Part shown: piece after piece, positions 13,638-15,109 of the stretch
Layout: every line of letters begins with the position of its first letter
Position numbering within the stretch: the stretch's first letter is position 1
Assembly (NCBI GenBank): GCA_026770025.1
Contig: JAMXDE010000005.1
Location: 2,790,001 to 2,854,000 of the forward strand
Direction: 5' to 3'
From: Craspedostauros australis
Lineage: Eukaryota > Bacillariophyta > Bacillariophyceae > Mastogloiales > Achnanthaceae
Length of the DNA: 64,000 bases
Made by a program: the position numbers and the translations under genes
The notes under the pieces: generated by a model
Databases searched by the model: none
What the model was told of the DNA's origin: nothing
Seen by the model: the letters and a program-made list of their open reading frames with translations, nothing else

Positions 13638-15109
13638 ATGCAGGTAAGTGGAGCCCACGTCGTGCCAATACCTTGATTGTTTGTGCGCTTGTGTGCTTGT
13701 GTGTTGAATACGATGAATGAAGAGGCCGTGCGTTCCGTCGTCGCATCACAGCCTCTGTCATGCTTCCTGCGCGCAGTTGCGAAGAGGAGGGCAAGCCTTC
13801 GCCGGTCAGTTTCGTTGCCTCGCCAAGTTCTGATACCTGTTTGCCGGGCCGCTCTCGTGTCGGTACTGCCGCCAACATGACACTGACAAACTGACGATCA
13901 CCCGAATTGCGTACCGTATTGCCTTACGCCTCTATGGTCACGTGATTCCACGATCGTGTCCCCCTCCATTATCACCATGAACTCCCGACACCCGCATGAA
14001 CCAAGATCTTCGTCAAGACCCTCACCGGAAAGACCATCACCTTGGATGTCGAGCCATCCGACACCATCGACAACGTCAAGACCAAGATCCAGGACAAGGA
14101 GGGAATCCCACCGGATCAGCAGCGTCTCATCTTTGCCGGAAAGCAGCTTGAGGATGGCCGCACACTCAGCGACTACAACATCCAGAAGGAGTCCACCTTG
14201 CACCTTGTCCTGCGTCTTCGTGGAGGACATTGCCAGGTCCCATGCGGAATCTTCGACGACCCGGCCATGGTCGCCGAAATGAAGCAGAACGCTGAGAGTG
14301 AGTTCTCGCATGACGTCGCATTCTGGAGGGTCCCGCAACGTGCCTTGCGCCTTTTATTGAGATGCTCCTTCTCCGTACTCGATGGTGGAATGCAATGTTT
14401 TGTGCTGCAAGACCATCCAAATCTCTATCTTGAGTACGAGTGCTCTGCGACCACATTCTTCCGTGCGATCTCGGCTGGGGTATTCCCAGCAACTGCAAGC
14501 CATCACCAGAGATGGCAATTCCACCTGTGGCACGTTCATATTCATGCTTGCCGCTTTTGACCCGTCAAGCGCACCCACTTCCCGATACTCACTCGCTCAC
14601 ATTTGTATGGCACTATTCATGACCGCTGCCGTCGATGCGATGTTCGTGCATTCACTCCGTTGACGAATGAACAATGAAATTGACACTTGGTTGGTTGGTT
14701 GGTTGGTTGGTTGGGCAAATGAACGAACTAACGAAAATCACTGGCGACAACCGAACAAAATCAACTTTCTCAACTCCACCGCGCCACGACAGCCGTTCGC
14801 AAGGCCATGACCTCATCCGCCGAGCTGCATGCCACCAAGGATCTCCAATCCATGAACCAGATCGTTCGCTGGATCAACACCAAGGAGGAGCACTGCGCCA
14901 AGATCATCACGCTCATCAGCGAGTACTGCCTCTGCCAACGCGTCAAGAAGGCTGTCTTCGAATCTGACAAGGACTACGTCGATGCCCTCAAGGCTCATCA
15001 CGCCGTCATGCAGGCCGCCATGAAGGCCAAGCAGACCATGGACACCGCCGCCTGCGACGCCTTGGAGCATGCCATCGATGACGTGTCCAAGATGTACATC
15101 AAGGAATGA
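13638..15109 (+). CDS. sodN: ubiquitin - nickel superoxide dismutase fusion, three exons
   Basis: Exons 13638-13643 (just Met-Gln), 14006-14297 and 14793-15109; introns of 362 bp (GTAAGT..AAG) and 495 bp (GTGAGT..CAG). All phases agree, giving 204 residues. Residues 1-76 are complete ubiquitin ending LRLRGG, with Asp16, Asp24 and Thr28 as the visible differences from the human protein. Residue 77 begins [11 protein letters not shown], the nickel hook of NiSOD: His1 amine and imidazole, Cys2 and Cys6 thiolates. The rest ([17 protein letters not shown], then a helical tail) matches the cyanobacterial-type four-helix NiSOD; the mature length is 128 residues. NiSOD converts superoxide to O2 and H2O2. 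Bacteria expose His1 with the SodX protease; here a deubiquitinase cutting after Gly76 would do so in the cytosol. No transit peptide is seen. Phe occupies position 9 where Streptomyces NiSOD has Tyr. Confidence 0.95.
14687..14714 (+). repeat. (TTGG)7 microsatellite in NiSOD intron 2
   Basis: Seven perfect TTGG units about 80 bp upstream of the exon 3 acceptor. Confidence 0.9.

Follow-up and report, generated by a model that had tools for sequence, protein, structure and literature searches.

A ubiquitin-nickel superoxide dismutase fusion gene in the diatom Craspedostauros australis and its likely maturation

In this study, we confirmed that a 64,000-nucleotide stretch of the Craspedostauros australis genome (hereafter the window), part of the 3.67-Mb contig C3 in an assembly of 74.8 Mb and 90 contigs, carries a gene that fuses ubiquitin to a nickel superoxide dismutase (NiSOD). 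Read directly from the window sequence, the gene occupies positions 13638-15109 of the + strand and has three exons, with splice sites placed from sequence and homology. Exon 1 (13638..13643) is ATG CAG, the first two ubiquitin codons, after which comes intron 1 (13644..14005; 362 nt, GT-AG, phase 0), and the frame is intact once spliced. Exon 2 (14006..14297) encodes ubiquitin residues 3-76, with the RGG end at 14227, then NiSOD residues 1-23 and the first base of codon 24. Intron 2 (14298..14792; 495 nt, GT-AG, phase 1) lies within this codon, for Thr24, and exon 3 (14793..15109) encodes the remaining NiSOD, a helical bundle in our structure model, and the TGA stop. The joined exons form 615 nt in frame, coding for 204 amino acids before TGA, and in-frame stops appear if either intron is kept. 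The predicted precursor is a 76-residue ubiquitin ending in LRLRGG joined without any linker to a 128-residue NiSOD, as the nickel hook HCQVPCG (14228..14248) directly follows ubiquitin Gly76. An earlier note on this DNA had described a full ubiquitin running from RGG straight into HCQVPCG; the sequence, the spliced translation and Pfam bear this out, and the coordinates and junctions that it gave (13643/14006 and 14297/14793) were exact on re-reading. Ubiquitin is matched by Pfam at residues 3-74 (E 8.9e-32) and Sod_Ni (PF09055) at residues 77-203 (E 9.2e-31; 107.5 bits against a cut-off of 25; profile positions 6-125 of 127), both far beyond chance. The nickel ligands His1, Cys2 and Cys6 are all present. 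A single place in the assembly encodes a NiSOD; the two matches obtained there correspond to the separate coding segments of the fusion.

This kind of fusion is already published, diatoms included, and the present gene is a further example. NiSOD transcripts were reported in 45 diatom species (85%), mostly as ubiquitin-NiSOD fusions, in the part of Groussman 2015 (PMC4460010) that we used, and the fusion was described in 116 eukaryotes, nearly all of them phototrophs and B. natans and G. theta among them, in the corresponding part of Sibbald 2019 (PMC6332867). The earlier note was correct that such fusions were known, but they are not limited to the green picoalgae that it named, given these 116 eukaryotes. 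As in the algal proteins covered by those parts of the two papers, a single N-terminal ubiquitin is set on the nickel hook, with the same proposed cut site; an intron map and a match to polyubiquitin were not found in the text consulted. Among the open-licence papers listed by literature searches, these two alone came up for the ubiquitin-NiSOD fusion, and no functional test of such a fusion was seen.

Judging from its sequence, the gene very probably makes a precursor that is cut after Gly76 to give an ordinary ubiquitin and a cytosolic NiSOD that starts with His1 and can bind nickel. The fusion would be transcribed, spliced and translated as a single precursor, and deubiquitinases would cleave it after Gly76 either co-translationally or immediately afterwards, in the manner of ribosomal ubiquitin fusions. 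This would release one normal ubiquitin and a NiSOD with a free His1, which would then bind nickel and remove superoxide in the cytosol, the compartment expected because ubiquitin stands in front and there is no signal peptide. The later steps are proposed on the strength of established ubiquitin-fusion processing and NiSOD chemistry. The genome has two places that encode UCH-family deubiquitinases. Similar to this protein, the ubiquitin-L40 and ubiquitin-S27a fusions carry ubiquitin before an unrelated protein and are known to be freed by deubiquitinases, although their partners are ribosomal. The earlier note had likewise proposed a removable ubiquitin cap whose loss through deubiquitinases bares His1; this is the best reading of the sequence, and it matches the proposal, in the part of Groussman 2015 at hand (PMC4460010), that cleavage by a ubiquitin-specific protease activates the hook.

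However, several observations weigh against this maturation scheme. A six-frame search of the genome that ignored introns gave no match to a NicO-type nickel transporter, although nickel can be imported in other ways. Fe/Mn superoxide dismutase (three matches at two places) and Cu/Zn superoxide dismutase (two matches at one place) are encoded as well, so the NiSOD may not be the main enzyme of this kind. The structure model of exon 3 is of middling quality (predicted local distance difference test score, pLDDT, 74.4; predicted template modelling score, pTM, 0.55), and a Foldseek search with it returned no match at E <= 0.001; a designed protein without relation to NiSOD ranked first, and the highest-placed NiSOD had E 1.2. 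Helical bundles easily reach middling Z scores. Finally, the usual Tyr9 of the hook region is replaced by Phe9 (TTC, 14252..14254).

This last point can be set against sequence variation in bacteria. The fusion reads HCQVPCGI-F and agrees with the motif H-C-X-X-P-C-G-X-Y except at its last residue, and in an alignment of 13 rows, the fusion and 12 bacterial proteins found by peptides other than the hook, H1, C2, V4, P5, C6 and G7 are invariant. Phe9 occurs in six of the 38 bacterial NiSODs kept in a larger set, which suggests that it is tolerated in nature, and we treat it as natural variation rather than as a ground for exclusion from NiSOD. A crystal structure of the Y9F mutant of a bacterial NiSOD exists (PDB 3g4x). 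In the bacterial enzyme, Tyr9 is described as keeping ordered waters in place and controlling the access of anions, in the part of PMC8910529 that we used. The motif with Tyr was required to call a NiSOD in the diatom survey, according to the portion of Groussman 2015 consulted (PMC4460010), and the Phe9-bearing fusion would therefore escape that filter. A coupling between Phe9 and Cys58 was considered and dropped: all three F9 rows of the 13-row alignment have Cys58, but four of the seven F9 rows of the larger set, the fusion being counted among the seven, have Ala58.

The larger set was drawn from 41 bacterial loci, of which L095, L097 and L098 were removed for want of an HCxxPCG frame (the latter two are partial matches at contig ends); as HCxxPCG was the selection criterion, hook conservation among the remaining 38 is by construction and is not evidence. 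Loci L068-L070, which repeat L038, L041 and L043, were left out. The closest bacterial NiSODs found carry a signal-peptide-like hydrophobic leader that ends just before His1. Leaders were recognized by a 10-residue stretch of mean hydropathy >= 1.6 together with one of the residues A, G, S, C or T immediately ahead of the His, a rule that stands in for a signal-peptide predictor and was failed by L049 and L096, which are hydrophobic with a different last residue, and by L067, which has a prosequence that we take to resemble the SodX type. These leader-bearing proteins (PF09055; Verrucomicrobiota, Myxococcota, Fidelibacterota and others) share with the fusion the hook HC[QE]VPCGI[YF] in the 12 aligned, the motifs R-W-I and M-K-x-K-Q and 37-52% identity, but their leader is that of an exported enzyme and not ubiquitin. 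In the NiSOD tree, built from bacterial sequences and the fusion, the fusion is the sole eukaryotic member.

The SodN/SodX-type NiSODs, in contrast, have a short prosequence that is removed by SodX. The fusion shares with them (PDB 1q0d, 3g4x) the HCxxPCG hook and possibly the bundle fold, which the model, of only middling quality, suggests; the sequence similarity is very weak (best E 0.16), and the leader is ubiquitin instead of a short prosequence. No peptidase match was obtained among 10 open reading frames neighbouring the NiSODs of L038, L039 and L041 when SodX was sought, the other frames there and all those of L043 being outside the scan. Because the leaders of the nearest bacterial NiSODs found resemble signal peptides and precede the equivalent His, ubiquitin appears to occupy the place of a signal peptide and not that of a SodX prosequence, and the comparison with SodX made in the earlier note is not the nearest one available. 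It is possible, if somewhat doubtful, that a leader swap took place, in which an exported bacterial NiSOD became a cytosolic algal enzyme when the front of a polyubiquitin-type gene, codon-2 intron included, replaced the signal peptide. The exact cut before His1 would have been kept throughout, by signal peptidase, SodX or deubiquitinases in different lineages. A viral origin or spread of the gene was considered and rejected, a conclusion valid for the collections searched: in viral_contigs, 18 stretches matched the pattern of a single-protein query and 44 that of the 13-row alignment, none of which was confirmed, and the phage collection held no relative of this NiSOD.

One could also imagine that the fusion is kept mainly for expression or for ubiquitin supply under oxidative stress, as in the ribosomal fusions, with exposure of His1 a by-product of any cleavage. 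The ubiquitin is indeed a full normal unit, and the genome also holds ubiquitin-L40 and ubiquitin-S27a fusions. Nevertheless, NiSOD is known to require a free His1, plain cytosolic translation would leave a Met before the His that methionine aminopeptidase removes poorly, and the bacterial relatives likewise have a removable-looking leader that ends before the His, so that we consider this explanation rather unlikely. The co-occurrence of fused and unfused NiSODs in some algae, noted in the part of Sibbald 2019 consulted (PMC6332867), is neutral in this respect. It is improbable that ubiquitin is retained permanently as a domain with a role in, for example, targeting, assembly or control of degradation. 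Nothing found here favors such a role; some algal ubiquitin fusions are internal or C-terminal in the portion of PMC6332867 that we used, so not all of them need processing, but an intact LRLRGG before a residue other than proline is the standard cleavage site, and with its His1 blocked the NiSOD would have no free amine to ligate nickel.

The ubiquitin half gives some insight into the history of the gene. It differs from canonical ubiquitin only by E16D, E24D and A28T (3/76), and all seven lysines and the RGG end are intact. At least 38 ubiquitin-family matches are present in the genome, and we compared eight canonical units: five from a single polyubiquitin gene and one each from the L40, S27a and NiSOD fusions. 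All eight encode the same protein over residues 12-76, and the three substitutions are common to the genome's other canonical units; over the 195 nt compared, the DNA of the NiSOD-fusion unit is 88.2-91.8% identical to that of the others. The five-unit polyubiquitin gene has a 414-nt intron after codon 2 (ATGCAG|GTAAGT...ACAG|ATT), which agrees with intron 1 of the fusion in both position and phase. The L40 gene has no codon-2 intron, and the S27a gene has an intron at codon 10 instead. Based on the identical units and the same intron position and phase, the ubiquitin end of the fusion and the polyubiquitin gene most probably had a common origin long ago. Alternatively, the two genes may have gained their introns independently at a proto-splice site (CAG|A); given a single intron per gene and about 228 positions, a chance coincidence would be rare by a rough reckoning that is not a test. 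Sequence homology of the two introns was dropped, as the best blastn piece between the 5' regions was 41 nt at 78% (E 0.015) and spanned the start-codon junction; position alone is taken as shared, with no clear sequence similarity. The earlier note had held that two introns argue against a recent bacterial transfer. The argument stands, but only intron 2 bears on the SOD part, intron 1 being a feature of the ubiquitin half. Contamination, an assembly join or a pseudogene is very unlikely, despite the single copy and the inferred splice sites, because contig C3 also bears the polyubiquitin gene, three light-harvesting matches and 13 silicon-transporter matches (the latter in pieces), the ubiquitin has the host's own three substitutions, and frame, hook and splice signals are all intact.

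Two other ubiquitin-related genes were seen in the assembly. One (L010, C12:1791154-1791597) encodes a protein whose N-terminus looks like a signal peptide and is followed by a pair of divergent ubiquitin-like repeats ending in LRLRGG and by a long C-terminal tail, and the stretch ahead of the first repeat likewise ends in RGG; we presume a resemblance to the plastid ubiquitin-like protein known from red-plastid algae. The other, at C49:287936-292034, is a single 1366-residue open frame in which 14 divergent ubiquitin-family matches stand in tandem, with no canonical RGG ends.

From a broader perspective, the gene provides a genome-level structure for a fusion known mostly from transcript data. 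The shared intron position links its ubiquitin half with the polyubiquitin gene, the signal-peptide NiSODs are the bacterial form to set beside the algal fusion, and the natural Phe9 cautions that algal NiSODs can be undercounted where a motif filter insists on Tyr9. These three points are modest additions to published work. If cleavage is confirmed, the timing of metal uptake by a metalloenzyme would be under the control of the ubiquitin system.

Near the fusion, the window encodes a protein kinase (5948-7651, - strand), a Sir2 family protein (9499-11124, + strand) and ankyrin repeats (16141-18039, + strand); none of these three scanned neighbours has a nickel-related function, other nearby frames being unscanned. 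Very long successive open frames on the + strand at 27316-49404 are probably one VPS13-like gene: the frame at 39497-45211 matches a C2 domain and a VPS13 adaptor-binding domain, two other scanned frames had no match, and the frame at 32236-39195 fell outside the scan. At 55440-63607, on the - strand, a frame of 1852 residues with reverse transcriptase and endonuclease domains lies behind a frame of 870 residues without a Pfam match, which looks like a non-long-terminal-repeat retrotransposon.

By its silicon transporters, light-harvesting proteins and rbcL, the genome is best read as that of a diatom or of a member of the sister group Parmales. Silicon transporters (PF03842) gave 88 matches in the genome, on contigs C2, C3, C9, C10, C11, C24, C37, C61 and others; 32 cover at least 480 of the 513 profile positions, 28 of these are stop-free, and broken copies also occur. 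In the portions of the literature that we drew on, diatoms are said to have three to five copies as a rule, but some diatoms or Parmales reportedly carry over 30. The count here could be inflated by uncollapsed haplotypes. The rbcL gene, on a 133-kb contig, has five best solved relatives at 1049-1072 bits and the next at 926; we take these five to be diatom rubiscos, although their printed names do not say so. Light-harvesting proteins gave 61 genome matches, and one of them, whose comparison with the PDB was not diagnostic for the host group, was closest to the LHCI chains of 9vfj (160 bits), followed by fucoxanthin-type proteins (<= 115 bits).
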